Assembly (NCBI RefSeq): GCF_002797495.1
Contig: NZ_PGEZ01000003.1
Span: 1 to 64,000 of the forward strand
From: Mumia flava
GTDB taxonomy: Bacteria; Actinomycetota; Actinomycetes; Propionibacteriales; Nocardioidaceae
DNA length: 64,000 nt
Reading direction: 5' to 3'
Below are positions 10,510 through 27,860 of this stretch, one piece after another. The notes below the pieces were generated by a model that saw nothing but the letters and a program-made list of their open reading frames with translations, had not been told where the DNA came from and made no database searches. Made by a program: the position numbers and the translations under genes. How positions within the stretch are numbered: the stretch's first letter is position 1; each line of letters starts with the position of its first letter.

Positions 10510-11001
10510 GTCGAGGCGCGAGCGAAGACCCACCCCGCTGGTCGAGGCGCGAGCGAAGCGAGCGATCGAGACCCCTGACTCGTTCGTTGGGGGTCTCGAT
10601 CGGGCTCGTCCCTCGCCCGACTCGACCAGCGTGAGAGTCCCCCGCTGGTCGAGGCGCGAGCGAAGCGAGTGATCGAGACCCCTGACTCGTTCGTTGGGGG
10701 TCTCGATCGGGCTCGTCCCTCGCCCGACTCGACCAGCGTGAGAGTCCCCCGCTGGTCGAGGCGCGAGCGAAGCGAGTGATCGAGACCCCTGACTCGTTCG
10801 TTGGGGGTCTCGATCGGGCTCGTCCCTCGCCCGACTCGACCAGCGTGAGAGTCCCCCGCTGGTCGAGGCGCGAGCGCAGCGAGCGATCGAGACCCCTGAC
10901 TCGTTCATTGGGGGTCTCGATCGGGCTCGTCCCTCGCCCGCCTCGACCAGCGTGAGAGTCCCCCGCCGGTCGAGGCGCGAGCGAAGCGAGTGATCGAGAC
11001 C
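10510..11001. repeat. 107-bp tandem repeat array of paired palindromic elements
   Basis: GTCGAGGCGCGAGCGAAG begins at 10541, 10648, 10755, 10862 and 10969, giving four complete units of exactly 107 bp and a 33-base fifth copy. A truncated copy lies at 10510-10527. Each unit contains an element running from GGTCGAG to GATCGAGACC and, further on, a second version of it in reverse orientation. Units differ at only a few bases. The rest of the 10385-11016 gap has no gene. Since 107 is not a multiple of three, frames through it are not coding. Confidence 0.92.
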
Positions 11002-11016
11002 CGACGGTCCGAGGCG

Positions 11017-12745: not shown

Positions 12746-14605
12746 TCAGCGCCCCGTACGGCCGTGGCCCCCCTTGTCGTTCGGGTGACCCTTGCCGTGC
12801 TTCTTCGCCTTGCCCTTCGGATGGAGCGGCTTGCAGACGAGGTCGTCGCCGACGGCCTTGCACTGCGTCTGGTAGCCGTGTGACAGGAGCGACTCGCCGA
12901 CCCAGCGGTAGTCCGGTCCAACGTCCTTCTTCGGTGTGTACGCCACGAAGTTCGCGGCGTCGTCGGTGCTGCCGGTGCCGTCGTAGCGGGCGACGGTCGG
13001 GTACGGGTAGACCGGGCGGGTTCGGGTCACCGTGCCCTGATCGTCGGTCGCGGAGGCGATCAGCCGGTCAGGGGCCCGGCCGCTCTCGACCCACGCCATC
13101 ACCGGGGTGAGCACATCGGTCGAGTTCGGGCCGTCGCCACCGCCGCAGTGCGCCATGCCCGGGAACAGGTAGAGCTTCGCGAACTGCTTCACCGCGCCCT
13201 TGCCCATCGTCTTCTGCATCGCGTCGTAGTACGCGAGGGTGTTCTGCGGTGAGATGTGCTGGTCGTTCCACCCGTGCCACAGCAGCAGCTTGCCGCCGCC
13301 CTTGCGGTACGCCTTGAGGTCCGGGTCCAGCGCGGCCATGTAGCTCGACGAGGGCATCACGGTGTCCCAGAAGCCCTTGACGGTCAGCGGCAGGTCGCTG
13401 AGCTCGTAGTCGGGGTCCGCGTCGTTCGGGTCGGCGAGGTAGCGCAGGTACGACAGCGCGAAGTTCTCGCTCTGCGCGTGCCCGTCGGGTGTCGCCGGAA
13501 CGAACAGCGTCCACTCCAGCTCCGAGCCCCACTCGTGCGAGATCTCCTGCTCGAGACGCTTCCCGTCGGCCGTCCTCGCACCCTCGTGGAGCTTCTGGAC
13601 GACCTCGGCCTCCTCCGTCGACAGGCAGGTCGACGGGTCCTGACCGTCGGCGCAGACGATCGTCATCGGGTCGAAGCCACAGGCGCGCGGATCGTCGAGG
13701 ATCCCGTCCTCCACGCCGTCGATCCCGTCGCACGCGGCGATCACCGCGTCGTGGACGACCGGCAGCTTGTCGGCGAGCAGGATGAACTGCCCCTTCTCGT
13801 CCTGGTTGGCCAGCACGTTCCAGGCGTGGTGGTACGTGTTCTGCACCGCCATGTTGCTCGCCGGAGCGCCCGCGGCGATCCCGTCGAAGTCGTCGGGGTA
13901 GCGCTGCGCCTCCATCAGCGCCTCGCGGCCGCCGTCGGAGCAGCCGGTGAAGTACGAGTACGCGGGCGCCTGTCCGTAGAACCTCGTGATGAGCGCCTTC
14001 GCGACCTCGGCGGTGACGTGCACCCCGCGGTACGCGAAGTCGATCTGCGCCTGCGGGTTGTCCGCGGCCCACGAGCCGTCGTTCTGACCCTGGTGCCCCA
14101 TGTCGGTGCTGGCGCTGGCGACGCTGCCGTCCTCGATCACCGGGCAACCGGAGGACTGGCCGTAGTTGATCCGCACGTTGCCGCACAGCCCGCCGCAGCC
14201 GGTCTGGACGTACCGCTGGGTCCACCCCTCGACGGGGAGACGGACCATGATCGTGTTCGCCGGGGCGACCGTGCCGGTCACCTCGCAGTACGGGGCGGTG
14301 GTGCCGTCGTCGACCACGCTCGCGGCCGTGATCGTGACGGGTGCGTCGGTGACGCCGTCGAGGTCGAGACCGACGACGTCCTCGCACGCCATCACCGGGG
14401 CGAGCGCGGCGAGGTCACGCAGGCCGTCGGCGGTGACGGCGGTGCGCCCGTGAGAACCGGCGCTCGTCGCGGCGCTGACCGTACCGGCCTGCGCGAGCGA
14501 CAGCACCAGGATCGCGGCGGCACCCACGGCGGCCGCGAGAAAGGCCGGACGTCGGCGAGTGCTGCGTACCGACGGCCGCTCCTGCCTCTGGAAGGTCCAA
14601 GGCAT
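12746..14605 (-). CDS. secreted tannase / feruloyl esterase family protein
   Basis: A 619-residue tannase-family (PF07519-type) esterase. It has a basic N-terminus and a hydrophobic segment ending near ...GTVSAA, a Sec signal peptide. The family CS-D-HC arrangement is intact: Cys222-Ser223 in GCSDGG, the Asp in WHGWNDQH, and His-Cys in GMAHCGGG, where the two Cys form a disulfide linking Ser and His. Members cleave galloyl or feruloyl esters. A Lys/Gly-rich tail of about 25 residues ends the protein and may bind the cell surface. AGAGGAG seven bases before ATG 14605 supports the start. It diverges from an importer and galBCD homologues, so it probably releases gallate outside the cell for import and breakdown. 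Confidence 0.88.
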   Translation of the reverse strand: MPWTFQRQERPSVRSTRRRPAFLAAAVGAAAILVLSLAQAGTVSAATSAGSHGRTAVTADGLRDLAALAPVMACEDVVGLDLDGVTDAPVTITAASVVDDGTTAPYCEVTGTVAPANTIMVRLPVEGWTQRYVQTGCGGLCGNVRINYGQSSGCPVIEDGSVASASTDMGHQGQNDGSWAADNPQAQIDFAYRGVHVTAEVAKALITRFYGQAPAYSYFTGCSDGGREALMEAQRYPDDFDGIAAGAPASNMAVQNTYHHAWNVLANQDEKGQFILLADKLPVVHDAVIAACDGIDGVEDGILDDPRACGFDPMTIVCADGQDPSTCLSTEEAEVVQKLHEGARTADGKRLEQEISHEWGSELEWTLFVPATPDGHAQSENFALSYLRYLADPNDADPDYELSDLPLTVKGFWDTVMPSSSYMAALDPDLKAYRKGGGKLLLWHGWNDQHISPQNTLAYYDAMQKTMGKGAVKQFAKLYLFPGMAHCGGGDGPNSTDVLTPVMAWVESGRAPDRLIASATDDQGTVTRTRPVYPYPTVARYDGTGSTDDAANFVAYTPKKDVGPDYRWVGESLLSHGYQTQCKAVGDDLVCKPLHPKGKAKKHGKGHPNDKGGHGRTGR

Positions 14606-14659
14606 CGAGAACTCCTCTGGGTTCAGAGCCCACCCGAGAACGCGACGGACGCCGCTGGG

Positions 14660-14692
14660 GTGTGACGGACGTTACACATGATCGTCAACAAT
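14660..14692 (-). promoter_or_regulatory. tannase promoter arm with GntR-type operator
   Basis: Read on the minus strand, ATTGTTGACGAT (14681-14692) is followed by GTGTAACGTCCGTCACAC (14660-14677). A -35-like TTGCAG lies just upstream, 18 bases from the -10-like TAACGT, so the operator sits in the promoter spacer. The arrangement is mirrored in the importer promoter with 17 of the 18 downstream bases identical. Confidence 0.6.
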
Positions 14693-14714
14693 CTGCAATG
14701 CAATCTTGCGAACG

Positions 14715-14747
14715 GGTCTCGATCGCTCGCTCCGCTCGCGCCTCGCC
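14715..14747. repeat. solitary copy of the GGTCGAG...GATCGAGACC element
   Basis: This 33-base segment is a reverse-orientation copy, with a few changes, of the element that makes up the 107-bp array at 10.5-11.0 kb. It sits between the two mirrored promoters of tannase and importer. Its presence at two loci shows it is an interspersed family. Confidence 0.75.
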
Positions 14748-14802
14748 ACCGACAGGTCTCGGGGAGGTCACGGTTCCGATCGCTCCACAAATTGGCTTCA
14801 CT

Positions 14803-14835
14803 ATTGTTCACAATCTGGTGTAGCGTCCGTCACAC
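14803..14835 (+). promoter_or_regulatory. importer promoter arm with GntR-type operator
   Basis: ATTGTTCACAAT (14803-14814) has perfect ATTGT/ACAAT arms, as expected for a FadR-type GntR dimer site. It lies between a -35-like TTCACT and a -10-like TAGCGT spaced by 18 bases, and is followed by GTGTAGCGTCCGTCACAC (14818-14835). Confidence 0.62.
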
Positions 14836-14886
14836 AATCCCCCGCCACACCCGCGGCGGGCCGTTGACCCTCTCAAGGAGGACCCG

Positions 14887-15885
14887 ATGCACCGGTTGTT
14901 CACCCGCGTCGCCCGGCGGCGAGGCCGCACGATCGCCGCACTCACGCTGGCCCTGACGCTGAGCGCGACGGCGACCGCCTGCGGTGGCGACGACGCCTCC
15001 GCCGGCGACGGATCCGGCGACGACACGACCGCGGTCACGGTCGGCGTCATCCCGATCCTCGACGTCGCGCCGATCTACCTCGGCGTCGAGCAGGGCTTCT
15101 TCGCCGACGAGGGCCTCGACGTGACGCTCGAGACCGCACAGGGCGGTGCGGCGATCGTGCCCGGCGTGGTGAGCGGGCAGTTCCAGTTCGGCTTCAGCAA
15201 CACCATCTCGCTGCTGCTCGCGACGTCCGAGGGCCTCCCGCTGACGGTCGTCGCCGACGGTGTCTCGTCCACCGGCGAGGAGGGCAACGACTTCGGCGCG
15301 GTGATCGTCCCCGCGGACTCCGACATCAAGACCGCCGCGGACCTCGAGGGCAAGAAGGTCGCGGTCAACACGCTGAACAACATCAACACCACCACGACCA
15401 ACGAGGCGGTCCGCAAGGACGGAGGCGACCCGTCGACCATCGAGTACGTCGAGCTGGCCTTCCCCGACATCATCCCCGCGATCCAGAAGGGTGACGTCGA
15501 CGCCGGGCAGGTCGTCGAGCCGTTCCTCACGATCGGCACGTCCTCGGGCATGCGCGCGGTCACGGACAACTTCGTCCAGACCGACCCCGACCTCACCGTG
15601 GCGATGTACTTCACCTCCGAGCAGTTCGCCCAGGAGGATCCGGAGGTCGTCGAGGCGTTCACAAGCGCGATGAACGAGTCGCTCGACTACGCCCAGGAGA
15701 ACCCGGATGCGGTTCGCGAGGTCCTCGGCACCTACACGGAGCTCGACGCCGACCTCCAGGAGCAGGTCATCCTGCCGCGCTGGACGTCGGAGATCGACGT
15801 CGACTCCGTCGAGCTTCTGTCCGAGCTGGCCGTGACCGACGGCCTGTACTCCGAGCAGCCCGACATCGACACGCTGCTGCCGTGA
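14887..15885 (+). CDS. ABC importer substrate-binding lipoprotein (NitT/TauT type)
   Basis: A 332-residue periplasmic-binding protein of the NMT1/SsuA/TauA class. An Arg-rich N-terminus, a hydrophobic stretch and Cys32 (TATAC) form a lipoprotein signal, although the lipobox is not canonical. The mature protein shows the class hallmarks PIYLGVEQGFFADEGLDV and the hinge segment LEGKKVAVN. It probably captures a small organic anion at the membrane surface. AGGAGG before ATG 14887 sets the start. Two permease genes and an ATPase gene follow with overlaps. Because galBCD homologues come next and a tannase diverges, gallate or a related acid is the best guess for the ligand; this is inference, as the class also takes sulfonates, nitrate and thiamine precursors. 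Confidence 0.85.
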   Translation: MHRLFTRVARRRGRTIAALTLALTLSATATACGGDDASAGDGSGDDTTAVTVGVIPILDVAPIYLGVEQGFFADEGLDVTLETAQGGAAIVPGVVSGQFQFGFSNTISLLLATSEGLPLTVVADGVSSTGEEGNDFGAVIVPADSDIKTAADLEGKKVAVNTLNNINTTTTNEAVRKDGGDPSTIEYVELAFPDIIPAIQKGDVDAGQVVEPFLTIGTSSGMRAVTDNFVQTDPDLTVAMYFTSEQFAQEDPEVVEAFTSAMNESLDYAQENPDAVREVLGTYTELDADLQEQVILPRWTSEIDVDSVELLSELAVTDGLYSEQPDIDTLLP

Positions 15886-16661
15886 CACGAGCACCGCGGA
15901 CCCGCGACGCGCTGCTCGGCCTGACCGGGCTCGCGCTCGTGGTCGCCGTCGTCCAGCTCCTCCCCACCCTCGGCCTGGTCGACCCCGCGTACCTCCCGCC
16001 GGCGACGGAGATGTTCTCCGCCCTGGCGCGGGAGGTCACCGAGGCGTCGTTCTGGACCCAGCTCGGCGAGACCCTGCGCGGGTGGGCGATCGGTCTCGCG
16101 GCCGCGATGGTCGCCGGTGTGCTGGCCGGCATCGTGATCGGCAGCGTCGACTTCCTGCGCAAGCTGACGGCGTCGACGATCGAGTTCCTGCGGCCGATCC
16201 CGTCGGTCGCGCTGATCCCGCTGGTCGTCCTGATCTACGGCAGCAAGCCCGCATCGGCCCTCGTCCTCGTGGTGTACGCGTCGTTCTGGCAGGTGCTCGT
16301 GCAGGTGCTGTACGGCGTCGCCGACGTCGATCCGGTCGTACGCGACACCGCGCGCTCGTACCGCTTCTCCCGCCGGGCGCTCGTCCGGCGGGTGATCTGG
16401 CCGACCGCGCTGCCCTACGTGCTCACCGGGTTCCGGCTCGCAGCCGCGGTCGCGCTGATCCTCGAGATCACCGCGGAGCTCGTGATCGGCGTGCCGGGGC
16501 TCGGAAACGCCATCGGCGTCGCACAGAGCTCGGGTGCGGTCGCGCTCACGTACGCCCTGGTGATCGTCGTCGGCCTCGTCGGCGTCGCGGTCAACCTCGG
16601 CGCCCGCACCATCGAGCGGCGGGCGCTGCACTGGCACGCCTCGATCCGGAGGGACCTATGA
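15882..16661 (+). CDS. ABC importer permease (SsuC/TauC type) 1
   Basis: A 259-residue inner-membrane permease of the binding-protein-dependent family. The cytoplasmic EAA-type loop that contacts the ATPase is readable as ARSYRFSRRALVRRVIWPTALPYV, and hydrophobic helices flank it. The GTG start at 15882 overlaps the stop of the binding-protein gene by four bases, and its own stop overlaps the next permease. The second permease is only distantly similar, so the importer probably uses a heterodimeric membrane part. That is less usual than the single SsuC or TauC homodimer. Confidence 0.88.
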   Translation: MTRAPRTRDALLGLTGLALVVAVVQLLPTLGLVDPAYLPPATEMFSALAREVTEASFWTQLGETLRGWAIGLAAAMVAGVLAGIVIGSVDFLRKLTASTIEFLRPIPSVALIPLVVLIYGSKPASALVLVVYASFWQVLVQVLYGVADVDPVVRDTARSYRFSRRALVRRVIWPTALPYVLTGFRLAAAVALILEITAELVIGVPGLGNAIGVAQSSGAVALTYALVIVVGLVGVAVNLGARTIERRALHWHASIRRDL

Positions 16662-17446
16662 CGACCGTCGCCACCTGGGGCCGGCAGCTGTTCTGGCTGC
16701 TCGCCCTCCCCCTGGTGCTGCTCACGCTGTGGTGGGTCGCCTCCGCCGACAGCACGAGCATCTTCTGGCCACCGCTGTCGACGATCCTCGAGGCGTTCCC
16801 GCAGACCTGGGACGCAGACCGGATCGTGAACGACGCCCTGCCGAGCCTGGCCCGGCTCGGCATCGGCTACGCCCTGGCGCTGGTCGCCGGGGTCGCGGGC
16901 GGGATCCTGGTCGGGCTCTCCCGTACGGTACGCGCGCTCTGCGAGCCGTCGATGGAGTTCTTCCGGGCGATCCCGCCGCCGGTGCTGGTGCCGGTGATCG
17001 CCCTGTTCGCCGGCTACACGGGGTCGACCTCGAAGATCGTGACGATCGCGCTCGGCTGCCTGTGGCCGATCCTGCTGAACACCGTCGAGGGCGTCCGCGG
17101 CCTCGACGAGGTCCAGCTCGACACCGCACGGGTCTACCGGTTCCGTTCCCGCACGCGCCTCCTGCAGGTCGTCCTGCGCGGCGCGAGCCCGCAGATCGCC
17201 GCCGGTGCCCGCCAGGCTCTGTCGATCGGCGTGATCCTCATGGTGATCAGCGAGCTGTTCGGAGCGAACCGCGGTCTCGGTGCCTCGATCGTGCAGTTCC
17301 AGCGGGCCTTCGCCGTGCCCGAGATGTGGACCGGCATCATCCTGCTCGGCCTGATCGGCGTGGCCCTCGCGGGCCTGTTCCGGCTGGTCGAGCACCGTGC
17401 GCTCGCGTGGTACCGCGGCGTACGTCGCGCAGACAGAGGAGCATGA
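16658..17446 (+). CDS. ABC importer permease (SsuC/TauC type) 2
   Basis: A 262-residue permease with an N-terminal hydrophobic segment and the coupling loop TARVYRFRSRTRLLQVVL, followed by QALSIGVILMVISELFG. It shares fold and loop position with the permease encoded just upstream but differs in most residues. ATG 16658 overlaps the previous stop (ATGA). Together with the other permease it would form the membrane channel of the importer. The ATPase gene begins one base after this stop. Confidence 0.88.
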   Translation: MTTVATWGRQLFWLLALPLVLLTLWWVASADSTSIFWPPLSTILEAFPQTWDADRIVNDALPSLARLGIGYALALVAGVAGGILVGLSRTVRALCEPSMEFFRAIPPPVLVPVIALFAGYTGSTSKIVTIALGCLWPILLNTVEGVRGLDEVQLDTARVYRFRSRTRLLQVVLRGASPQIAAGARQALSIGVILMVISELFGANRGLGASIVQFQRAFAVPEMWTGIILLGLIGVALAGLFRLVEHRALAWYRGVRRADRGA

Positions 17447-17447
17447 C

Positions 17448-18305
17448 GTGAAGACCACGACCGACGAGCGCGCGAGCGCCGCAGCGACCACCGGAGACCG
17501 ACCCGTGATCCCGGACGGCGCAACGATCGCGCTCGACGTGCGCAGCCTGCAGAAGGTCTACCGCACCCAGGACTCCGAGCTCGAGGCGATCCGCGACCTC
17601 ACCTTCCAGGTGCCGCGTGGCCAGCTGGTCTGCATCGTCGGCCCCTCCGGCGCCGGGAAGACCACGCTCCTGCGCTGCATCTCCGGCCTGCTGGAGTCGA
17701 CCTCGGGCGAGGTGCTGCTCGACGACGAACCCGTGACAGGTCCGCCGCCCGGGATGGCAGTCGTGTTCCAGGAGTACGGGCGGAGCCTGTTCCCATGGAT
17801 GACCGTCCGTCAGAACGTCGAGCTGCCGCTGCGGGAGAAGGGGATCGGCAGGGCGGAGCGGCACGCACTCGTCGACGAGGCCCTGGACGCGGTCGGTCTC
17901 GGCGACGTCCCGTCGGCGTACCCGTGGCAGCTCTCCGGCGGGATGCAGCAGCGGGTCGCGATCGCCCGCGCGGTCGCGTACCAGCCCGAGGTCCTGCTCA
18001 TGGACGAGCCGTTCGCCGCCGTCGACGCCCAGACCCGTGCCGACCTGGAGGACCTCATCCGCACGCTCTGGAAGCGCCTCGGGATCACGGTCCTGTTCGT
18101 CACCCACGACATCGACGAGTCGGTCTACCTGGGCCAGCGGGTGCTCGTGCTCTCGAACCGGCCGACGGTCGTGATCGAGGATGTCCGCGTCGACCTTCCC
18201 GACGAGCGTGACCAGCTCGAGACCCGGTCCTCGCGCCGCTTCACCGAGCTGCGCGGTCACGTGTACGAGCTGATCCAGAAGGCGAAGAAGGGCTACCGGC
18301 CGTAG
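17448..18305 (+). CDS. ABC importer ATPase (SsuB/TauB type)
   Basis: A 285-residue ATP-binding subunit. It has Walker A GPSGAGKTT, the Q-loop in VFQEYGRSLFPW, the signature LSGGMQQR, Walker B VLLMDEPF and the switch His in VTHDI. It energises the two permeases encoded just before it. GTG 17448 is preferred because AGAGGA lies seven bases upstream; a longer frame from 17397 overlaps the permease and adds no homologous residues. A stretch of 145 bases without a gene then separates it from galB; GAAAGGACC before galB shows that gene has its own ribosome site. Confidence 0.9.
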   Translation: MKTTTDERASAAATTGDRPVIPDGATIALDVRSLQKVYRTQDSELEAIRDLTFQVPRGQLVCIVGPSGAGKTTLLRCISGLLESTSGEVLLDDEPVTGPPPGMAVVFQEYGRSLFPWMTVRQNVELPLREKGIGRAERHALVDEALDAVGLGDVPSAYPWQLSGGMQQRVAIARAVAYQPEVLLMDEPFAAVDAQTRADLEDLIRTLWKRLGITVLFVTHDIDESVYLGQRVLVLSNRPTVVIEDVRVDLPDERDQLETRSSRRFTELRGHVYELIQKAKKGYRP

Positions 18306-18450
18306 GGTCACCGTCGCTGTGCTGGGCCTCGACGCCACCGGCTGACCGGGCGGCACCGCCGCAAGCCCACCCGTACCCGCTCTTGTTGTTGAAACCCTCG
18401 TTCCCGCCACCGCCTCGACCGACGGCCGGGAACCTCACGAAAGGACCGCC

Positions 18451-19197
18451 GTGGCCGACACCGCTTCTCCTTCGGCACCCTCGACCCTCGTGATCACCGC
18501 GCACGCCGGCGACTTCGTCTGGCGCGCCGGGGGCGCGATCGCACTCGCTGCCTCCCGCGGCGAGCAGGTGACCATCGCCTGCCTCACCTACGGCGAGCGC
18601 GGCGAGTCCGCTCGCGCCTGGCGCGAGGGAAAGAGCCTCGACGAGATCAAGGCGATCCGTCGCGACGAGGCCGAGCGCGCCGCCGCCACGCTCGGCGCCG
18701 AGGTGCGCTTCTTCGACGCCGGCGACTACCCGCTGCGCGAGACGCCCGAGCTCGTCGACCAGCTCGTCGGTGTCTACCGCGAGACGCAGCCGGACGTGGT
18801 CCTCACGCACCCGCCGCACGACCCGTACAACGCCGACCACCCGGCCGCCTGCCGGATGGCGCTCGAGGCACGGATCCTCGCTCAGGCGATCGGGTACCCC
18901 GCCGAGGGCGACCCGCTCGGCGCTCCCCCGGTGTTCTACTTCGAGCCGCACCAGCCCGAGGTCTGCGACTTCACGCCCGAGGTGCTCCTCGACATCACCG
19001 ACGTGTTCGCGACGAAGCGGGCGGCGATGGAGTGCCTGTCGGCGCAGCAGCACCTGTGGGAGTACTACACCGACCTCGGCAAGCGCCGCGGCGTCCAGCT
19101 CAAGCGCAACGCGGGACCGAACCTCGGCTTCCCCACCACCACCTACGGCGAGGCGTACATGCGCCCGTACCCGCAGGTCACGGAGCGCCTCGCATGA
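18451..19197 (+). CDS. galB: 4-oxalomesaconate hydratase (PIG-L family, GalB-like)
   Basis: A 248-residue PIG-L/LmbE-fold protein. The metal-binding start reads ITAHAGDFVWRAGGAIA, resembling the variant seen in GalB rather than the usual HPDD of deacetylases, and a second cluster is THPPHDPYNADH. GalB of Pseudomonas putida hydrates 4-oxalomesaconate to 4-carboxy-4-hydroxy-2-oxoadipate in gallate breakdown. The next genes are homologues of the aldolase and tautomerase of that pathway, which strongly supports this reading over a sugar deacetylase. The GTG start follows GAAAGGACC. Its stop overlaps the aldolase start. Confidence 0.8.
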   Translation: MADTASPSAPSTLVITAHAGDFVWRAGGAIALAASRGEQVTIACLTYGERGESARAWREGKSLDEIKAIRRDEAERAAATLGAEVRFFDAGDYPLRETPELVDQLVGVYRETQPDVVLTHPPHDPYNADHPAACRMALEARILAQAIGYPAEGDPLGAPPVFYFEPHQPEVCDFTPEVLLDITDVFATKRAAMECLSAQQHLWEYYTDLGKRRGVQLKRNAGPNLGFPTTTYGEAYMRPYPQVTERLA

Positions 19198-19919
19198 GCG
19201 CCGCGGATCTGCGTCGGTTGATCGTCACCGACACCCGGCGACCCGACCCGGCCGCGGTCGAGCGGCTCCGGGCGTACGGGGTGGCGACCGTGCACGAGGC
19301 GATGGGACGCACCGGCAGTCTCGGTCCGGACCTGCGGCCGATCCAGCAGGGCACCACGATCGCGGGCGCCGCGGTCACCGCGCTGTGCTGGCCCGGCGAC
19401 AACCTGATGATCCACGCCGCGGTCGAGCAGTGCGGTCCCGGGGACGTGCTCGTGGTCGCCGCTGCGGCGCCGTCGACGCACGGGATGTTCGGGGAGCTGT
19501 TCGCGACCGCGCTGGCGCACCGCGGGGTGGTCGGGGTGGTCAGCGACACCGGGGTGCGCGACACCGCCGACCTGCGCGCGATGGGGTTCCCGGCCTGGTC
19601 GCGATACGTCTCCGCGCAGGGCACCGTGAAGGCGACCGCCGGCCACGTGAACCTCCCGGTCGTGATCGCCGGCCAGGTGATCGAACCCGGTGATGTCGTG
19701 GTCGCCGACGACGACGGCGTCGCGGTCGTGCCGCTGGACCGCGTCGAGCAGACGGTCACCGCGTCGCAGGCGCGGTTGGAGAAGGAGGCCGCGACCCGCG
19801 AGGCGTTCCAGCGCGGCGAGCTCGGCCTCGACCGGTACGGGCTGCGGCCGCTGCTGGAGAGCCTCGGGGTCGAGTACCGCACGCACGCCGAGCTGCAGGA
19901 CACGGACGGCCGGCCGTGA
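19194..19919 (+). CDS. galC: 4-carboxy-4-hydroxy-2-oxoadipate aldolase (GalC/LigK-like)
   Basis: A 241-residue RraA-fold class II aldolase. The catalytic stretch reads VSDTGVRDTADLRAMGFP, whose Arg and Asp bind substrate and divalent metal in LigK/GalC. It would split 4-carboxy-4-hydroxy-2-oxoadipate into pyruvate and oxaloacetate, the final step of the gallate and protocatechuate 4,5-cleavage routes. ATG 19194 overlaps the galB stop and its own stop overlaps galD. RraA, the RNase E inhibitor, has the same fold but is shorter, and the operon context excludes it. Confidence 0.85.
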   Translation: MSAADLRRLIVTDTRRPDPAAVERLRAYGVATVHEAMGRTGSLGPDLRPIQQGTTIAGAAVTALCWPGDNLMIHAAVEQCGPGDVLVVAAAAPSTHGMFGELFATALAHRGVVGVVSDTGVRDTADLRAMGFPAWSRYVSAQGTVKATAGHVNLPVVIAGQVIEPGDVVVADDDGVAVVPLDRVEQTVTASQARLEKEAATREAFQRGELGLDRYGLRPLLESLGVEYRTHAELQDTDGRP

Positions 19920-20992
19920 CCCGCGGGATTCGCTGTGCGTGGATGCGCGGCGGCACGTCGAAGGGCGCGCTGTTCCTCGCCGAGGACCTGCCGTCCGACG
20001 ACGCGGCGCGCGACGACCTGCTGCTGCGCGTGATGGGCAGCCCGGACCCGCGCCAGATCGACGGGCTCGGCGGTGCCCACCCGCTGACGAGCAAGGTCGG
20101 CGTGGTCTCGGTCTCCGACGACCCCGATGCCGACGTCGACTACCTGTTCCTCCAGGTCGTCGTGGACCGGCCGGTGGTGTCGACGTCGCAGACCTGCGGC
20201 AACATCCTCGCGGCGGTCGCGCCGTTCGCCCTCGAACGCGGTCTGCTGCCGACGACCGACGGCGTCACCGACGTACGGGTCCGGATGGTCAACACCGGCG
20301 CCCTCGCCACGCTGCACGTCCGCACGCCCGGCGGCGTCGTGACGTACGACGGTGACGTCGCGATCACCGGTGTCCCCGGCACCGCGGCGCCGGTCGAGGT
20401 CGACGTGGAGCCGTCCGGCGCCCCGCTTCTGCCGACCGGCCGGACCACCGACCGGCTCGCCGGCGTCGACGTGACCTGCATCGACAACGGCATGCCGTCG
20501 GTGATCGTGCGCGCCGCCGACGTCGGCCTGAGCGGCGCTGAGGATCCCGACGCGCTCGAGGCGGACCCGGCGCTCGCCGAGAAGGTCCGCGCGATCCGCA
20601 CCGCGGCCGCCGACGCGATGGGCCTCGAGACCGACCTGGAACGCACCACGACCCCGAAGATCGTGTTCGTCGCTCCCCCGGCTGCCGGCGGCACGATCCT
20701 CACCCGCAGCTTCATCCCGGTCCACGTGCACCGCGCGATCGGTGTGCTCGGCGCCGCCACGGTGGCGGCCGCCGCTGCACTGCCGGGCACCACGGCGTAC
20801 GGGGTGGCGCGGCTCGGCGACGACGGCGGCGCGCTGCGGATCGAGCACCCGACCGGCTACCTCGACGTCGGCATCGCCACCACCGACGACCCCGCGCCCG
20901 CGGTCACCCGCACGACCCTCGTGCGCACGGCCCGGATGCTGCTCGACGGCGTCGTCTACCCCGGCCCCGCCCGGACCACCCGTCCCGTCTGA
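19916..20992 (+). CDS. galD: 4-oxalomesaconate tautomerase (GalD/LigU-like, PrpF family)
   Basis: A 358-residue PrpF/DapF-fold isomerase. The opening IRCAWMRGGTSKGALF and the later SQTCGN contain the family substrate loops and the conserved Cys. GalD and LigU interconvert forms of 4-oxalomesaconate so that the hydratase can act. The GTG start overlaps the aldolase stop by four bases. Together with galB and galC this is the complete lower gallate set. The methylaconitate isomerase PrpF is the main alternative, but no methylcitrate genes are nearby. Confidence 0.82.
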   Translation: MTRGIRCAWMRGGTSKGALFLAEDLPSDDAARDDLLLRVMGSPDPRQIDGLGGAHPLTSKVGVVSVSDDPDADVDYLFLQVVVDRPVVSTSQTCGNILAAVAPFALERGLLPTTDGVTDVRVRMVNTGALATLHVRTPGGVVTYDGDVAITGVPGTAAPVEVDVEPSGAPLLPTGRTTDRLAGVDVTCIDNGMPSVIVRAADVGLSGAEDPDALEADPALAEKVRAIRTAAADAMGLETDLERTTTPKIVFVAPPAAGGTILTRSFIPVHVHRAIGVLGAATVAAAAALPGTTAYGVARLGDDGGALRIEHPTGYLDVGIATTDDPAPAVTRTTLVRTARMLLDGVVYPGPARTTRPV

Positions 20993-21021
20993 CCTCCCTG
21001 TACGACCGAAGGAGACCCACC

Positions 21022-21975
21022 ATGCCCGCACCGCTCGGAGACATCGCGCACCTCGGCCACGTCGAGCTGCTGACCCCCGACCTGGAGGGGTCGGTCTGGT
21101 TCTTCACCGAGATCCTGGGCCTGACCGAGACCCGGCGCGAGGGCGACTCGGTGCACCTGCGGACGTTCGACGACTACGAGCTGACGAGCATCGTCGTGAC
21201 CGGCCACACCACCTCCGGACTCCGCCGCACGGCGCTTCGCGCGTCGAGCCCCGAGGCGCTGCAGCGGCGGGTCGACGCAATCGAGGCCGCCGGGGGCACC
21301 GGCCGATGGACCGAGGGGAGCGCGGGGACCGGCCCGATGTACCTGACGACCGACCCGGACGGGCACGAGATCGGGCTGTACTACGAGTCGGAGTGGTACG
21401 AGGCGCCGGAGCACCTCGCGCCCGGCCTGAAGAACCAGCCGCAGGCCAAGCCGCGTCAGGGCGTCGGCGTCCGTCGGCTCGACCACGTGAACTTCCTCGC
21501 CGCCGACGTCGAGCCGAACGCCGACTGGGTCGAGCACACGCTGGGTGCGCGTCCGACCGAGCAGATCCGGCTCGACACGGGCCGGATCGCGGCGCGGTGG
21601 CTGACCTTCAACAACAAGTCGTACGACCTCGTCTACACCGAGGACTGGTCGGGCTCGAGCGGGCGGCTGCACCACATCGCATTCGCGACCGACACCCGCG
21701 AGGACATCCTCCGCGCCGCGGACCTGTGCCTCGACAACGGCGTCCACATCGAGACCGGGCCGCACAAGCACGCGATCCAGCAGACGTTCTTCCTCTACGT
21801 CTACGAGCCCGGCGGCAACCGGATCGAGCTGTGCAACCCGCTCACCCGGCTCGTGCTGGCCCCGGACTGGCCGCTGATCACGTGGACCCAGGCGGAGCGC
21901 GCCAAGGGCCAGGCGTGGGGGCTGCAGACGATCGAGTCGTTCCACACCCACGGCACCCCGCCCCTGGACTCCTGA
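21022..21975 (+). CDS. type I extradiol dioxygenase (catechol 2,3-dioxygenase-like)
   Basis: A 317-residue two-domain vicinal-oxygen-chelate (VOC) dioxygenase. The Fe(II) ligands are all in the C-terminal domain as usual: His155 in RLDHVNF, His217 or His218 in LHHIAF and Glu269 in GNRIEL. GAAGGAGACC precedes ATG 21022, 29 bases after galD. It is the only ring-cleavage enzyme in the tannase-importer-galBCD group. Known gallate dioxygenases (GalA, DesB) are unrelated LigAB-type proteins, and none is present here. It may therefore cleave gallate, protocatechuate or another catechol feeding 4-oxalomesaconate. Its substrate preference cannot be read from the sequence. Confidence 0.85.
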   Translation: MPAPLGDIAHLGHVELLTPDLEGSVWFFTEILGLTETRREGDSVHLRTFDDYELTSIVVTGHTTSGLRRTALRASSPEALQRRVDAIEAAGGTGRWTEGSAGTGPMYLTTDPDGHEIGLYYESEWYEAPEHLAPGLKNQPQAKPRQGVGVRRLDHVNFLAADVEPNADWVEHTLGARPTEQIRLDTGRIAARWLTFNNKSYDLVYTEDWSGSSGRLHHIAFATDTREDILRAADLCLDNGVHIETGPHKHAIQQTFFLYVYEPGGNRIELCNPLTRLVLAPDWPLITWTQAERAKGQAWGLQTIESFHTHGTPPLDS

Positions 21976-22383: not shown

Positions 22384-23055
22384 TCATCGCCGGACGTCGG
22401 ACCGCTCCCCGACCTCGCGCATCGCCGAGATCACGCTGTCGAGATGGGCCCGTACGGCGGCGGCAGATGCCTCGGGGTCGCGGCTGCACACCGCCTCGAT
22501 GATCGCGAGGTGCTCGGGCAGCGAGACCTGCGGCCGGCCGGGCTGCGTCGCGAGCCGAAACTGGTGCCGCACGAGCTGTCCGTGCAGCCGATCCAGCACG
22601 TCGGCAGCGGTCTGCTGGTGCCCGAGCTCGCGGAGCATCTGATGGAGTCGCTGGTTGAGGGCGGAGTAGCCGAAGACGTCGCCGGACGACACCGCGCTCC
22701 GCATCCGATCGCCGATCTCGCGCAGCTCGGCGATCGCGGAGTCGTCGACGTTGCGTGCGGCCTTCTCGGCGCAGAGCGACTCGACGACCGCGCGGACCTC
22801 GTAGATCTCGATCGCCTCGGACAGCGGCACCACCCGCACGCGCGCCCCGCGGTTGGCGACACGCTCGACGAGACCCTCGCCCGCGAGGCTCAGCAGGGCC
22901 GTGCGAACGGCACCGCGACTCGCATCGAACTGCTCGGACAGGTCCGCCTCGACGAGCCGCTGGCCCGGGGCGAAGCCCGCGTCGAGGATGGCCTCCCGGA
23001 TCGCGCGCGCCACGACGGCAGGGTCGCTGGTCGGTCGTACGTCCTGCGCCGTCAT
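22384..23055 (-). CDS. GntR-family regulator, FadR/FCD subfamily
   Basis: A 223-residue one-component regulator. The N-terminal winged helix reads AIREAILDAGFAPGQRLVEADLSE, then SRGAVRTALLSLAGEGLVERV, as in GntR proteins. The C-terminal all-helical FCD domain with metal-binding His residues (RLHQML, HLAIIEAV) binds a small carboxylate. ATG 23055 follows AGGGGG; an adjacent GTG is less likely. A site like those in the tannase and importer promoters lies 50 bases upstream, so the protein probably represses itself and the gallate genes until a pathway compound is bound. This regulatory link is inferred from the shared sites. Confidence 0.87.
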   Translation of the reverse strand: MTAQDVRPTSDPAVVARAIREAILDAGFAPGQRLVEADLSEQFDASRGAVRTALLSLAGEGLVERVANRGARVRVVPLSEAIEIYEVRAVVESLCAEKAARNVDDSAIAELREIGDRMRSAVSSGDVFGYSALNQRLHQMLRELGHQQTAADVLDRLHGQLVRHQFRLATQPGRPQVSLPEHLAIIEAVCSRDPEASAAAVRAHLDSVISAMREVGERSDVRR

Positions 23056-23103
23056 CACGCCCCCTGGATCGTCACCGGCGCGGTGCGCGAACGCCCCACG
23101 GTG

Positions 23104-23190: not shown

Positions 23191-23985
23191 TCAGCTCCCC
23201 TCGGCGGACGCGAGCTCCGACTTCCAGGTCCGGAAGCCCTCCTCCGAACGGCCGCGGCGCCAGTAGCCCGAGATCGAGACCTGGCCGCGATCCAGACCGC
23301 GCTCCTTCAGGAGGTACGGGCGCAGTCCGTGCATCGTCGTCTCGGCCTCGCCGTGCACGAACGCCTGGACGCGCCCCGGCCACCACGCGAGATCGCGGAC
23401 GGCGTCGACGAGCGCGCCCGGGGCGGACCCGGCCCGGTGCACGAACCGCACCACCGCGCCGTCCGGCACCGGCAGCACCGGCTCGTACGCCTCCGACTCG
23501 ACCTCGATCACCACCTGGACCCGGGCGTCGGCGGGCAGCGCCGCGAGCGCCGCGGTGATCGCAGGGACGACGGAGTCGTCGCCGACCAGCAGGTGCCAGT
23601 CCGCGCTCGGGTCCGGCGCGTACCCGCCGCCCGGCCCGTTGACCAGCAGCCGGTCGCCGGGATTCGCAGCCGCCGCCCACGGTCCGGCGACGCCCTCGTC
23701 CCCGTGCACCACGAAGTCGATCGCGACCGTGCCCGCCTCGACGTCCGGGAACAGCGCGGTGTACGTGCGGACGGTCGGCAGGTCCTCGGGCGCCATCGTC
23801 CGACGCAGCGCGCGCATGTCGAGCCCGTCCGGGTAGTCCACGCCGGGCTTCGGGAACACCAGCTTCACGTAGCGGTCGGTGTCGGTGCTGTCGGCGAACG
23901 CGGACAGGTCGTCGCTGCGGAACCACACCCGCCGGATCGCCGGCGTCACGTCCTCGGTGCTCGTCACGGTCAGCTCGGTGCTCAC
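23191..23985 (-). CDS. siderophore-interacting protein (FAD/NAD(P)H ferric reductase)
   Basis: A 264-residue flavoreductase of the SIP/ViuB family. The FAD-binding half includes RTYTALFPD and DFVVHGDEGVAGPWA; the NAD(P)H half includes LLVGDDSVVPAI and the C-terminal GYWRRGRSEEGF. Such proteins reduce ferric siderophores in the cytoplasm. A GTG start at 23985 follows GGAGGCGG. It lies 46 bases after an Ldh2-type dehydrogenase gene and may be the last gene of that unit. No siderophore genes are visible here; it may supply Fe(II) for the non-heme dioxygenases, which is speculative. Confidence 0.87.
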   Translation of the reverse strand: MSTELTVTSTEDVTPAIRRVWFRSDDLSAFADSTDTDRYVKLVFPKPGVDYPDGLDMRALRRTMAPEDLPTVRTYTALFPDVEAGTVAIDFVVHGDEGVAGPWAAAANPGDRLLVNGPGGGYAPDPSADWHLLVGDDSVVPAITAALAALPADARVQVVIEVESEAYEPVLPVPDGAVVRFVHRAGSAPGALVDAVRDLAWWPGRVQAFVHGEAETTMHGLRPYLLKERGLDRGQVSISGYWRRGRSEEGFRTWKSELASAEGS

Positions 23986-24031
23986 TCCGCCTCCTCCGCG
24001 GCCGACGACGTCGGAACCGACGACGCGCCCG

Positions 24032-25090
24032 TCACGCGCCGTCCGCGGTCGACGGTAGCGCGACGTCGAGCGTCTCGGCCGCCTCGACCAGCTGCGCCCA
24101 GACCTTCGGCATCACCGGCACGCCCGCGGCGCGCTCCGCCGCCACGCCCGCACTGCGCTCACCCGGGAAGTAGATCCCGTCGACGCCGTCCGCCGTCGGC
24201 AGCGACTTCAGCGCATCCAGCGTCGCGTCGACCTGCTCGCCGAACTCGGCAGCATCCCCGTACGCCGCGGGGTCGATCGCGATCAGCAGCGCGTTCTGAC
24301 GGTGCTTCTTGCCCTCGCCCGTGCCGGTGTGGACCTGGGCGAGCACCGGGGCGCCGACCAGGACGCTGGTGAGCAGCTCGAAGACGAGCGACATGCCGGA
24401 ACCCTTCGCGCCGCCGAGCGGCAGCGGCATCTCGGCGAGCTCCGGGTCGGTGGTCGGGGTGCCGTCGGCGGTGCTGGCCGCGCCCTCGGGCAGCGGGGTC
24501 CCGCTGGCCTTGTGCTGCTTGATCCTGCCCATCGCGATCGTCGCGGTCGCCATGTCGAGCAGCACGATCCCGTGCTTCGCGCTCGGCACGGCCACCGACA
24601 GCGGGCTGGTCGCGACCGCGGCGCCCTTGACACCGGTGTAGCCCATGTTCGGCATCCCGGCGACGAAGCCGATCCCGATCATCCCGGCCTCGGCGATCCG
24701 GTGCGTGTAGTAGCCGATCGCGCCGGTGTGGATGGTGCGCTGCACGCCGACCGACGCGATCCCCGTCGTACGGGCGGTCTCGACCGCGAGATCCGCGGCG
24801 CGGGTGAGCGCCACCGGGCCCGGCGCGCGGTCCGCCTGGACGACCGCGGCCGCCGGCGTGGTGCTGACGACCTGGACGTCCGCCGCGGTGTTGACGACCC
24901 CGCGGTCCAGGAAACGCAGGTAGGTCGGCACCAGGCCGGTGCCGTGGGTGTCGACGCCGCGGACGCTGGCCCAGGTCATCACCTCGGCCATCGTCGCGGC
25001 CTGGTCGGGCGCGACGCCGGACTTCTCGAAGATCGCGGCGATGAACGCACGCAGCTCGTCGGTCGGGATCACGGCGGCAGGTGCCGGCAT
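24032..25090 (-). CDS. Ldh2-type malate/lactate dehydrogenase family oxidoreductase
   Basis: A 352-residue NAD(P)-dependent 2-hydroxyacid dehydrogenase of the PF02615 family, which is not related to classic Rossmann-type LDH. Typical segments are SVRGVDTHGTGLVPTYL with the catalytic His, and GGAKGSGMSLVFELL near the middle. Family members reduce or oxidise small 2-oxo/2-hydroxy acids such as malate, ureidoglycolate or diketogulonate. AGGAGGAG precedes ATG 25090. The ThDP enzyme gene lies 66 bases upstream in the same direction. The substrate is unknown; a 2-oxo acid from aromatic breakdown would fit. Confidence 0.85.
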   Translation of the reverse strand: MPAPAAVIPTDELRAFIAAIFEKSGVAPDQAATMAEVMTWASVRGVDTHGTGLVPTYLRFLDRGVVNTAADVQVVSTTPAAAVVQADRAPGPVALTRAADLAVETARTTGIASVGVQRTIHTGAIGYYTHRIAEAGMIGIGFVAGMPNMGYTGVKGAAVATSPLSVAVPSAKHGIVLLDMATATIAMGRIKQHKASGTPLPEGAASTADGTPTTDPELAEMPLPLGGAKGSGMSLVFELLTSVLVGAPVLAQVHTGTGEGKKHRQNALLIAIDPAAYGDAAEFGEQVDATLDALKSLPTADGVDGIYFPGERSAGVAAERAAGVPVMPKVWAQLVEAAETLDVALPSTADGA

Positions 25091-25156
25091 GGTTCTCCTC
25101 CTCAGGGTGGAGTACGGATGGGTGCCCGTCAGCGGGGCGGGCTCAGCGGGACACGG

Positions 25157-26860
25157 TCAGCGGGAGACCGAGACGTTGACGATCGCGGTCACGCCCTCGC
25201 GCACCGACTTCCAGGCGCGCTCGAGGGCCGGGCCGAGGTCCTCGAGGGTCTCGACGGCCTCCCCGTGCATCCCGAAGGGCGCGGTGAAGGCGGACAGCTC
25301 GGGCTGCGTGCTGAGGTCGACACCGAGGAACTCTCCGCTCCCGACGGCCGCACCGTCGGGGTAGAACCGCAGGTGGTTCATCTTCATCGAGCGGTACTCG
25401 CGGTTGTTGAGCACCACGATCAGCAGCGGCAGACCGACGTCCGCGGACGCCTGGAGCGACTGCACGATCGGGTTGTAGAGGAACGCCCCGTCGCCGATCG
25501 TCAGGACGACCGGACGCTCCCGTACGGCGAGCTTGACGCCGAGCGCGACCGCGAGGCCCTGCCCGAGCCCGCCCTGGACGTAGAAGTAGGAGTCCGGAGT
25601 CTCCCGGGCGAGGTGGCGCTGGACGACCCGGCTGTGCGTGATCGTCTCGTCGACGAACGCCGGGTCCTCGTCCGCGGTGAGCTCGCGCAGCGCGACGGCG
25701 ACTGCGACCGGGTCGATCCCGGACGCACCGTCGCGTGCCTTCTCCTCCGCAGCGGTCACCGACGCGACCTCGGCCGTACGGCGGGTCGCGGCCGCCTCGC
25801 GTCGCGCGTCGAGCAGGTCCGCCGCGATCCGGTCACGGCCGCCAGCGGACAGCGTCCGCAGCGTCGCCGCGACCCCGCCCTCGAGGTAGTGCGACGCGTG
25901 CAGCACCTGGTAGACGACGTGCGGCCGCTGCGGCACCTCGTCGATCACCACGACCGTCGCCTTGTCCGGTCGCCGGCTCGGCGGGTAGAACGGCGCCCGG
26001 CAGTTCACGAGCAGCATCAGGTCGGCCTCGGCCATGTACGGCTCGAGGTCGCCGCCCACGTGCAGGGGGTGGGTCCGCGGGAAGTTCGCGCAGACCGCCG
26101 ACCCGGGCTCGACGACCGGGATCCCGAAGGTCTCGGCGAGCTCGACCAGCGCCTCCATCCCGTCCGACTCGCGTCCCGCCGTCTCGGTCACGATCACGGG
26201 ACGCTCCGCCGACAGCAGCAGCGCCAGCACGCGCTCGACGTCCTCGGGCGCACTGACCGTCCCGCCGCGCGGAGCGGTCGGGGTGATCTCGTCCGGCCCC
26301 TCCCACGCCTCGAGCAGGACCTCGAGCGGCACGTTCAGGTACGTCGGCCCGGCCGGGGCCCGCTCGGCGAGCTCCGCGGTCCGGGTCACCATCCCGTACA
26401 GGGTGTGCACGCTGGCGGCCTGGTTCGACCACTTCGTGAACGGCGCCGCCATCATGTGCGGGCCACCGACGACGGAGAGGTTGCGGTACCACTGGCCGCC
26501 CGGATCAGGCCCGGGCCCGTCACCGTACGTCGTGGACTCCGACGACGCGACCACCATCGGCACGCCGGCCAGCAGCGCCCCGTGGATCGCGCACGACCCC
26601 TGGAGCAGCCCCGGCCCGGCGTGCAGCAGCACGCCCTGGGCACGTCGCTTCACCAGGCCGTACCCCGTGGCCATCGCCACCGCGACGGTCTCGTGCGTCA
26701 GGTCCAGGTACGCCGGGGCGGGCACGCCGTCGGCGTGACGGCGGGCGAGGGCCTCCCACACCGGGGCCCACTCCGACCCCGGCGACGAGAAGATGTAGTC
26801 CGATCCGACGGCGTCGAAGGCCGAGACGATCGCCTCGCCGCCGTCACGCGTGCCGCTCAT
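25157..26860 (-). CDS. ThDP-dependent enzyme (acetolactate synthase-like)
   Basis: A 567-residue thiamine-diphosphate enzyme of the acetolactate synthase/benzoylformate decarboxylase superfamily. The catalytic Glu of the pyrimidine domain is in LTHETVAVAMATGYG near residue 57. The cofactor motif GDGAFLYNP...VVLNN lies at about 450-480. The middle domain lacks a clear FAD-binding signature, so true AHAS activity is unlikely. It probably decarboxylates or carboligates a 2-oxo acid. Its gene follows the amidohydrolase gene after seven bases and precedes the Ldh2-type gene, suggesting consecutive steps on the same compound. Confidence 0.82.
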   Translation of the reverse strand: MSGTRDGGEAIVSAFDAVGSDYIFSSPGSEWAPVWEALARRHADGVPAPAYLDLTHETVAVAMATGYGLVKRRAQGVLLHAGPGLLQGSCAIHGALLAGVPMVVASSESTTYGDGPGPDPGGQWYRNLSVVGGPHMMAAPFTKWSNQAASVHTLYGMVTRTAELAERAPAGPTYLNVPLEVLLEAWEGPDEITPTAPRGGTVSAPEDVERVLALLLSAERPVIVTETAGRESDGMEALVELAETFGIPVVEPGSAVCANFPRTHPLHVGGDLEPYMAEADLMLLVNCRAPFYPPSRRPDKATVVVIDEVPQRPHVVYQVLHASHYLEGGVAATLRTLSAGGRDRIAADLLDARREAAATRRTAEVASVTAAEEKARDGASGIDPVAVAVALRELTADEDPAFVDETITHSRVVQRHLARETPDSYFYVQGGLGQGLAVALGVKLAVRERPVVLTIGDGAFLYNPIVQSLQASADVGLPLLIVVLNNREYRSMKMNHLRFYPDGAAVGSGEFLGVDLSTQPELSAFTAPFGMHGEAVETLEDLGPALERAWKSVREGVTAIVNVSVSR

Positions 26861-26867
26861 CGAACGA

Positions 26868-27728
26868 TCAGCCCTCCATCGGCCAGTCGAGGGCCTCGCA
26901 GATGCCCCGACCCATGATCCAGTCGAGCTCGTCCGCGCTGAAGTCGTAGTACTTCGTGAACTGCTCGATCGTGTCGGTCCACGTCAGGCCGTGGCCCATC
27001 AGGCGGGTGATGTCGGTGCCCCAGAAGCAGCGCTCCGGCCCCATCGCGTCGACCATCTGGCGGACGTACTTCTCGATGTTCTTGTTGGGGAACTCCTGGG
27101 TCGAGTAGCCCGGGATCGCCGACACCTTCACGTAGATGTTCGGGTGCACGTGCAGGTCCGCGGTCTCCTGGACCCAGTAGCCGATCGCATCGTCCACGCA
27201 CCTGGCCATGATGCCCATGTGGTCGATGATGATCTTCAGATTCGGGTGCTTCTCCGCGATCTGACCCAGCTCGGCCTTCCAGATCGGCGCGTGCACCATC
27301 GTCGGGATGCCGAGCTTCTCCGCGATCGGCCAGTACCAGTCGTTGGTCCCGTCGATCATCCAGTTGCGGTCCTGCGGCCGGTGGAACGTCAGCCGCGTGC
27401 CCTTGATGTACGGGTTGTCCTTGAACTCGTGCAGCAGCCGCTCCCCCTCCTCGGGGTCGTCCTGCGGCACCCGCGCCATGATCCCGAAACGGCCGTCGTA
27501 CCTCTCGGCGGCCTCGAGCGAGTAGTCGATCCGGTTGCCCTCCCACGACGGCGGCAGGATCAGCGCACGGTTGACGCCGGCCTCGTCCATCAGCGAGACG
27601 GCCTCCTCCGCGAGGAACGCCTCCTCACGGTGGCCGTTCAACCGGATCCGCTCACGGGCGCCGGGCACCCACGGGCGGTCGGGCGTCTCTTCCTTCCAGA
27701 GGTGGATCTGGCTGTCGACGACGAACAT
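26868..27728 (-). CDS. amidohydrolase family 2 protein
   Basis: A 286-residue TIM-barrel amidohydrolase. The usual N-terminal HxH metal pair is reduced to DSQIHLW with only the second His; other probable ligands are the His in MVHAPIW, the His in IIIDHMG and the Asp in FWGTDITRL. The DSQ(V/I)H variant is common in a branch of PF04909 that includes lactone hydrolases and decarboxylases of aromatic pathways. It could open a lactone such as a pyrone dicarboxylate, as LigI does, but this is a guess. AGAAGGAC before ATG 27728 supports the start. A palindrome shared with two other promoters lies about 90 bases upstream. Confidence 0.8.
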   Translation of the reverse strand: MFVVDSQIHLWKEETPDRPWVPGARERIRLNGHREEAFLAEEAVSLMDEAGVNRALILPPSWEGNRIDYSLEAAERYDGRFGIMARVPQDDPEEGERLLHEFKDNPYIKGTRLTFHRPQDRNWMIDGTNDWYWPIAEKLGIPTMVHAPIWKAELGQIAEKHPNLKIIIDHMGIMARCVDDAIGYWVQETADLHVHPNIYVKVSAIPGYSTQEFPNKNIEKYVRQMVDAMGPERCFWGTDITRLMGHGLTWTDTIEQFTKYYDFSADELDWIMGRGICEALDWPMEG

Positions 27729-27816
27729 GCTGTGTCCTTCTCGGTTCGATGACGTACGGATCGGGTGTGGTGACTCACACGCTAGGTGGGTTCGGGCCGC
27801 TTGCGGAGGCCCTGCA

Positions 27817-27826: not shown

Positions 27827-27860
27827 TAGTTGCGCGCAGCGCACGGCCCGGCGCGTCTCC

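Follow-up and report, generated by a model that had tools for sequence, protein, structure and literature searches.

A candidate gallate dioxygenase of the type I extradiol fold in the gal operon of Mumia flava and in related loci of other bacteria

We analyzed the first 64,000 nucleotides (the window) of contig NZ_PGEZ01000003.1 of Mumia flava (assembly GCF_002797495.1; 4.40 Mb, 7 contigs, 99.75% complete), focusing on a run of gallate catabolism genes that ends in a protein of the VOC family (Table 1). The plus-strand genes between 14887 and 21975 overlap by 4 nt or are separated by gaps of at most 145 nt, and are therefore likely to form a single operon. The first four (14887–18305) encode an ATP-binding cassette (ABC) importer of the NMT1/SsuA type, followed by galB, galC, galD, and the VOC gene. 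An esterase gene diverges from the operon, and a GntR/FCD regulator, relatives of which are conserved near VOC loci, is its probable controller. A search for the GntR operator as inverted repeats in the intergenic regions turned up a single weak repeat (73%) and some 6-base palindromes, perfect or nearly so, none of them usable. A preliminary description of this locus had listed a secreted tannase, the importer, galB, galC, galD, and a VOC dioxygenase; profile and structure-relative matches confirmed the importer, the three gal genes, and the VOC gene.

Table 1. Genes of the putative gallate operon and neighboring features of the window
Feature	Coordinates	Strand	Supporting match or remark
Tandem repeat	10533..11002		107-base unit, 4.4 copies, 97% matches
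Tannase/feruloyl-esterase family hydrolase	12746..14605	minus	PF07519, 405 bits; divergent from operon
Importer substrate-binding protein, NMT1/SsuA type	14887..15885	plus	PF09084, 135 bits
Importer permease 1	15882..16661	plus	PF00528
Importer permease 2	16658..17446	plus	PF00528
Importer ATPase	17448..18305	plus	PF00005; start codon assigned in this analysis
GalB-type 4-oxalomesaconate hydratase, PIG-L fold	18451..19197	plus	PF02585; 5cgz
GalC/LigK-type 4-carboxy-4-hydroxy-2-oxoadipate aldolase	19194..19919	plus	NF006731; 3noj
GalD/LigU-type 4-oxalomesaconate tautomerase	19916..20992	plus	NF033377; 6p3j
Type I (VOC) extradiol dioxygenase, 317 aa	21022..21975	plus	PF00903; near the TIGR03211 cut-off
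GntR/FCD regulator	22384..23058	minus	PF07729, PF00392
Five-gene block	23191..29060	minus
Amidohydro_2 protein (in the block)	26868..27728	minus

GalB, GalC, and GalD occur together in the window, and because all three match solved enzymes of the 4-oxalomesaconate (OMA) pathway, we consider the lower gallate pathway to be present. The top solved relative of the GalB protein was deposited as "4-oxalmesaconate hydratase" (E-value 9e-79). GalC scored 314 bits against NF006731 (cut-off 179) and 274 bits against TIGR02798, below the cut-off of 304.5, with 3noj as a solved relative (E-value 3e-70). GalD scored 444 bits against NF033377 (cut-off 440) and is related to the (4E)-oxalomesaconate isomerase 6p3j (E-value 5e-104). 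The esterase (619 aa) is probably secreted, given a signal-like N-terminus judged by eye, and might release gallate from galloyl esters. The "secreted tannase" of the preliminary description thus stands as a PF07519 esterase with a signal-like N-terminus; its tannase activity is a family-level guess, because feruloyl esterases and MHETase belong to PF07519 as well and were its nearest solved relatives in a structure-database comparison.

The VOC protein belongs to the type I extradiol family (PF00903, E-value 1e-25), and profile searches with it gave no match to the gallate dioxygenase model NF009904 or to PF02900. Its structure model (pLDDT 78, pTM 0.82; residues 250–254 and 298–317 below 50) has the two-module VOC fold, with a Foldseek match to 3lm4 at an E-value of 3e-34 and TM-scores of 0.76–0.87 against type I extradiol structures. 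His155, His218, and Glu269 make up the 2-His-1-Glu metal site; they are invariant in 14/14 aligned rows and align with the ligands of homoprotocatechuate 2,3-dioxygenase (HPCD). The protein also has aligned equivalents of HPCD Asn157, Trp192, His248, and Tyr257. Titles of PDB entries among the structure matches name H200 and Y257 variants of HPCD.

The second-sphere catalytic histidine is replaced: Tyr201 of the VOC protein aligns with His200 of HPCD. Tyrosine fills this slot in 107/107 related rows besides the window (99 + 8; 106 distinct), some of which have no visible gal gene owing to contig edges, and one of which, from Chimaeribacter, has none within 8 kb. Histidine fills it in all seven outgroup rows (4 + 3), and galB, galC, and galD were not found in any of those seven stretches. 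In a VOC tree of 51 rows, the 44 tyrosine rows formed a single clade (support 99/98). Arg293 is invariant among the rows of this clade and Lys295 nearly so (arginine in three rows); these two residues and Lys249 are candidates for holding a substrate carboxylate. The closest solved relative, 9wgj (323 aa, E-value 2e-105), was deposited as "Catechol 1,2-dioxygenase" and likewise carries tyrosine in the slot; we found no mention of this PDB code in the open-access literature. According to the accessible part of PMC3962378, the catalytic histidines at equivalent positions in DesB and BphC are essential, which makes a natural tyrosine there mechanistically interesting.

The preliminary description had noted that the locus lacks a LigAB-type gallate dioxygenase, and none was found in the rest of the genome. 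Across the whole genome PF02900 matched two proteins, both of which hit only the 4,5-DOPA-dioxygenase model (317 and 145 bits, one above and one below the cut-off of 233). They lie on contigs other than that of the operon, and we rejected them as gallate handlers on these two grounds. A GalA query taken from another actinobacterium (locus L161) was searched over 296 genomes of the class at an E-value of 1e-30; it had no match in this genome and matched nine others. Two of the nine were full length (the query itself at 100% and a second protein at 80% identity), and the remaining seven covered only the first ∼280–310 residues at 42%–47% identity. Full-length GalA was found in 2/296 genomes and in none of the 14 genomes that have a gal-type VOC gene, this one included. 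A LigA-domain search returned no match, and since its positive controls were silent too, it carries no weight.

We found the VOC gene to be tightly linked to gal genes across Actinobacteria. In the class sample, the VOC query at an E-value of 1e-40 or better identified 16 genomes, this one included, and 17 matches outside this genome were examined. Of the 13 matches with 57%–78% identity, galC was adjacent in all 13, galD in 12, a GntR gene in 12, and galB in 10; the four matches with 37%–39% identity had no gal genes alongside. A scan of named genomes yielded at least 577 VOC relatives among 596 candidates. The best 80 of these all carried the tyrosine signature, with galC and galD in 75, GntR in 71, and galB in 67, figures whose weight is reduced because these are the top matches to the query, mostly from Streptomyces, and are not independent. 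Also represented among the best 80 are Mumia (the nearest, at 84%), Nonomuraea, Amycolatopsis, Actinomadura, and Kutzneria.

The actinobacterial set comprised 93 loci, of which L023 and L058 are the same stretch. Requiring the VOC gene to have 4 kb or more of upstream sequence, as a control for contig edges, retained 88 loci; within 5 kb of the VOC gene, galC was present in all 88, galD in 86, and galB in 76, and a GntR relative lay within 11 kb in 83. GalA and LigB queries had no match in the 93 loci. In the 12 loci with galC and no galB within 5 kb (L026, L030, L032, L040, L052, L053, L054, L089, L092, L099, L114, and L117), another hydratase may replace GalB. A tannase-family gene was near the VOC gene in 4/88 loci, against a background of any such match in 19/148 whole genomes. 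An aromatic-acid-type transporter of the major facilitator superfamily, like that of L021, was found in 47/93 loci (40% identity over 60% length); the sole typed member scored 271 bits against TIGR00895, below the cut-off of 418.6.

A swap at the position of the VOC gene was observed in genome G111. Its importer–galB–galC–galD operon is homologous to that of the window (identity of 65% for the substrate-binding protein, 73%–74% for the permeases, 74% for the ATPase, and 73%, 64%, and 53% for galB, galC, and galD, respectively), and is followed, where the window has the VOC gene, by a 439-aa protein that scored 754 bits against NF009904 (cut-off 412). The G111 row was nested among the VOC-linked actinobacterial rows of the galC tree, with L030 as its sister (97/84), and the galB tree placed it in the actinobacterial VOC-operon clade (99/98). 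This placement suggests that a LigAB-type GalA and the VOC protein are alternatives within one operon lineage. A similar gallate dioxygenase gene (765 bits against NF009904) lies beside galD in genome G152, whose row was outside the VOC-linked actinobacterial rows in both trees. Among the 20 genomes of the sample in which galD was matched at 51% identity or higher, 13 had a gal-type VOC gene, two had GalA beside galD, and two had a LigB gene in a cluster of the protocatechuate type.

The conserved VOC–galC–galD linkage, the swap in G111, and the lack of full-length GalA in the 14 VOC genomes support the non-homologous replacement put forward in the preliminary description. Gene neighborhoods strongly suggest a ring-opening enzyme of a different fold, here and in many other bacteria. 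Working from sequence data, we assign a probability of roughly 0.8 to the 317-residue VOC protein being the gallate dioxygenase of this operon, a non-homologous replacement of GalA/DesB in an otherwise ordinary gal operon.

Similar blocks were found beyond Actinobacteria. A search of plasmid records at an E-value of 1e-30 returned 91 with a VOC match. Relatives with 53%–60% identity came from Agrobacterium (walnut, grapevine), Rhizobium, Thioclava (mangrove), Roseibium, Roseomonas, Methylobacterium, Pantoea, Chimaeribacter, and Thermus oshimai. We examined 14 such proteobacterial and Thermus stretches; galC was present in 13, galB in 11, and galD in 10, and nine had a compact galB–VOC–galC–galD block. 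In Agrobacterium from walnut, the block includes a tannase-family gene as well, which reproduces the combination seen in the window but with a different importer. In Pantoea, galB, galC, and galD are 6 to 9 kb away from the VOC gene, and in Roseomonas and Methylobacterium galC is the sole gal gene, about 7–8 kb away. Relatives with 39%–43% identity (Embleya, Thermus thermophilus, Rhodococcus) had no galB, galC, or galD in their stretches.

Two other protein families were noted around these loci. An oxidoreductase annotated as DUF1932/NAD(P)-dependent recurs beside the proteobacterial VOC–gal blocks (L164, L165, L166, L168, L169, L179, L182, L183, and L189), and a relative of it is found in 10/93 actinobacterial loci, the member in L116 having been typed. 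A DUF6282 protein is shared, at 58% likeness, by Thermus oshimai (L167, 10597–11517) and genome G295 (L032, 12580–13497). The VOC loci in which it is found are without galD, or without both galB and galD, and it might represent an additional type of OMA hydratase or tautomerase.

Several observations weigh against the assignment of the VOC protein as a gallate dioxygenase. Tyrosine in place of the usual catalytic histidine could mean altered or weak catalysis. Mutual exclusion of GalA and the VOC gene rests on little, as only two genomes have GalA, and VOC genome G209 also has, elsewhere, a LigB-type gene with 43% identity to the N-terminal 289 residues of GalA. Three of the 20 galD genomes (G199, G131, and G250) have neither a VOC nor a LigB gene beside galD, and the Chimaeribacter VOC gene has no gal gene within 8 kb. 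In Roseomonas, a LigI-like gene (50%) and a LigB-type gene (47%–49% to LigB/GalA) lie near the VOC gene, so there the VOC gene is not a simple replacement. Finally, the protein scored 315.6 bits against the catechol 2,3-dioxygenase model TIGR03211, within 5 bits of the cut-off of 320.2, and several public plasmid records give its relatives this name. It might accordingly act as a 2,3-dioxygenase on catechol or substituted catechols and merely be a neighbor of the gal genes. However, catechol meta-pathway genes were not recognized beside it, whereas the Thermus thermophilus and Rhodococcus relatives (39%–42%) sit among such genes (dmpG-type). With galC close by in all 88 edge-controlled loci and tyrosine in the histidine slot, we regard this explanation as very unlikely.

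The reactions of GalB, GalC, and GalD are common to the protocatechuate 4,5-route. Cleavage of the gallate ring is expected to yield OMA directly, and 4,5-cleavage of protocatechuate needs a semialdehyde dehydrogenase (LigC) and a hydrolase (LigI) of 2-pyrone-4,6-dicarboxylate (PDC) ahead of OMA. The VOC protein could therefore be a protocatechuate 4,5-dioxygenase, with 4-carboxy-2-hydroxymuconate semialdehyde oxidized by a dehydrogenase encoded elsewhere and then passed to GalD, GalB, and GalC. Some neighborhoods suit this explanation: in Thermus oshimai the block lacks galD and contains a PobA-type gene (annotated as 4-hydroxybenzoate 3-monooxygenase) together with an aldehyde dehydrogenase, the Roseibium block also has an aldehyde dehydrogenase, and a LigI-like gene (68%) lies between galC and the VOC gene in L099, as one lies near the VOC gene in Roseomonas. 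A Gfo/Idh oxidoreductase without the LigC-type C-terminal domain is near 28/93 VOC loci, genomes G123 and G225 have LigI-like genes on contigs other than that of the VOC gene, and an Amidohydro_2 protein, of the same Pfam family as LigI, lies beside the operon in the window. In addition, the accessible part of PMC8431788 describes a Pseudarthrobacter type II enzyme that accepts both protocatechuate and gallate.

The missing genes argue against protocatechuate. Neither a LigC nor a LigI gene is present in the window operon. Among the 93 actinobacterial loci, a LigC-type gene was found in none (no genome-wide LigC search was made), and a LigI-like gene was found at full length only in L099 and as an edge fragment in L064; both searches matched the two protocatechuate control clusters (L158 and L159). 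These controls carry LigB-type, LigC-like, LigI-like, and PobA-like genes, labels that are based on context and Pfam and not on equivalog matches above cut-off, except for the LigB subfamily model. At an E-value of 1e-10, the LigI-like query was also without a match in 12/14 VOC genomes, this one included, and again matched both controls. The Amidohydro_2 protein had no match to this query; in the sole NCBIfam model that it shares with the control LigI-like protein it scored 31 bits vs. 211. The genome has both subunits of protocatechuate 3,4-dioxygenase, above their cut-offs, and the swap partner of the VOC protein in G111 scores as a gallate dioxygenase. We rejected protocatechuate as the substrate on the lack of LigC and LigI types in the operon, the 3,4-dioxygenase, and the swap, and consider it unlikely.

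A third candidate substrate is a relative of gallate (3-O-methylgallate, for example, or a different pyrogallol with a carboxyl group), from which cleavage would give OMA or a product one step away. GalA also cleaves 3-O-methylgallate, as stated in the accessible part of PMC12481942, and an uncharacterized five-gene block adjoins the operon. The same source has methylgallate cleavage proceed through CHMOD to PDC, a course that needs the PDC hydrolase, which the LigI-like query did not find in this genome. Tannase-family genes point instead to free gallate, and we judge a gallate relative to be highly improbable.

With gallate as the substrate, the esterase would free it outside the cell and the ABC importer would carry it in. 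With His155, His218, and Glu269 the VOC protein would hold a divalent metal, probably Fe(II); it would bind the vicinal hydroxyls and break the C4–C5 bond of the ring, yielding OMA directly. By strong homology to solved enzymes, GalD would then tautomerize OMA, GalB hydrate it, and GalC split the hydration product into pyruvate and oxaloacetate. The predicted intermediates are OMA and 4-carboxy-4-hydroxy-2-oxoadipate, as in the known OMA pathway. What the preliminary description put forward as a possible undescribed gallate route would thus be new in its ring-opening enzyme and familiar in its intermediates, with the novelty limited to that enzyme.

The five-gene block next to the operon encodes, besides the Amidohydro_2 protein, a siderophore-interacting-type flavoprotein, an Ldh_2-type dehydrogenase, a thiamine-diphosphate enzyme, and an L-2-hydroxyglutarate oxidase. 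Four of the five (all but the flavoprotein) are found in the same order before GntR–galB in L021. The block may be a second feeder pathway, with substituted mandelates as a guess at its substrates. The window also holds a tandem repeat (Table 1).

The reference system for comparison is the gal pathway of Pseudomonas putida KT2440, which consists of GalA, GalB, GalC, GalD, and GalT. Enzymes of the GalB, GalC, and GalD types are common to it and the window, as are import of the substrate and OMA as the predicted ring-cleavage product. The window differs in having a VOC-fold protein in place of GalA (a type II enzyme of the LigAB fold) and an ABC importer in place of the GalT transporter, as well as a GntR regulator. 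(GalA and GalT of this pathway also appear in the accessible part of PMC9649394.) The proposed reaction, from gallate to OMA, is that of the type II enzymes DesB, GalA, and LigAB, from which the VOC protein differs in fold and in its lack of an NF009904 or PF02900 match. It shares the fold and the aligned His/His/Glu ligands with AphC (7q2a), 3lm4 (Rhodococcus RHA1), the catechol 2,3-dioxygenase XylE (1mpy), and HPCD (1f1x). Yet it has only 38% identity to AphC and 3lm4, differs from HPCD by Tyr201 in the His200 slot, and, unlike the type I extradiol comparators, has Arg293 and Lys295 in its C-terminal segment and no recognized catechol pathway nearby. We found no type I gallate dioxygenase in the open-access literature searched, including the accessible parts of PMC9867520, PMC9277890, and PMC8091115, and an earlier description is possible. 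AromaDeg, in the accessible part of PMC4250580, qualifies its list of type I substrates with "among others", and gallate is not named in it.

More broadly, we think it likely that the tyrosine-marked VOC clade as a whole acts as the gallate 4,5-dioxygenase in many Actinobacteria and in Alphaproteobacteria associated with plants and mangroves, has an origin independent of GalA/DesB, is swapped with GalA/DesB in one operon lineage, and is recorded in databases as catechol 2,3-dioxygenase or VOC family protein. If so, gallate catabolism would have two unrelated ring-opening enzymes, one of which is overlooked by genome annotation. The pair would represent a clean case of functional convergence within one operon slot, and the VOC enzyme would offer a test of type I extradiol catalysis without the usual catalytic histidine, as well as a new biocatalyst for the upgrading of lignin and tannin.

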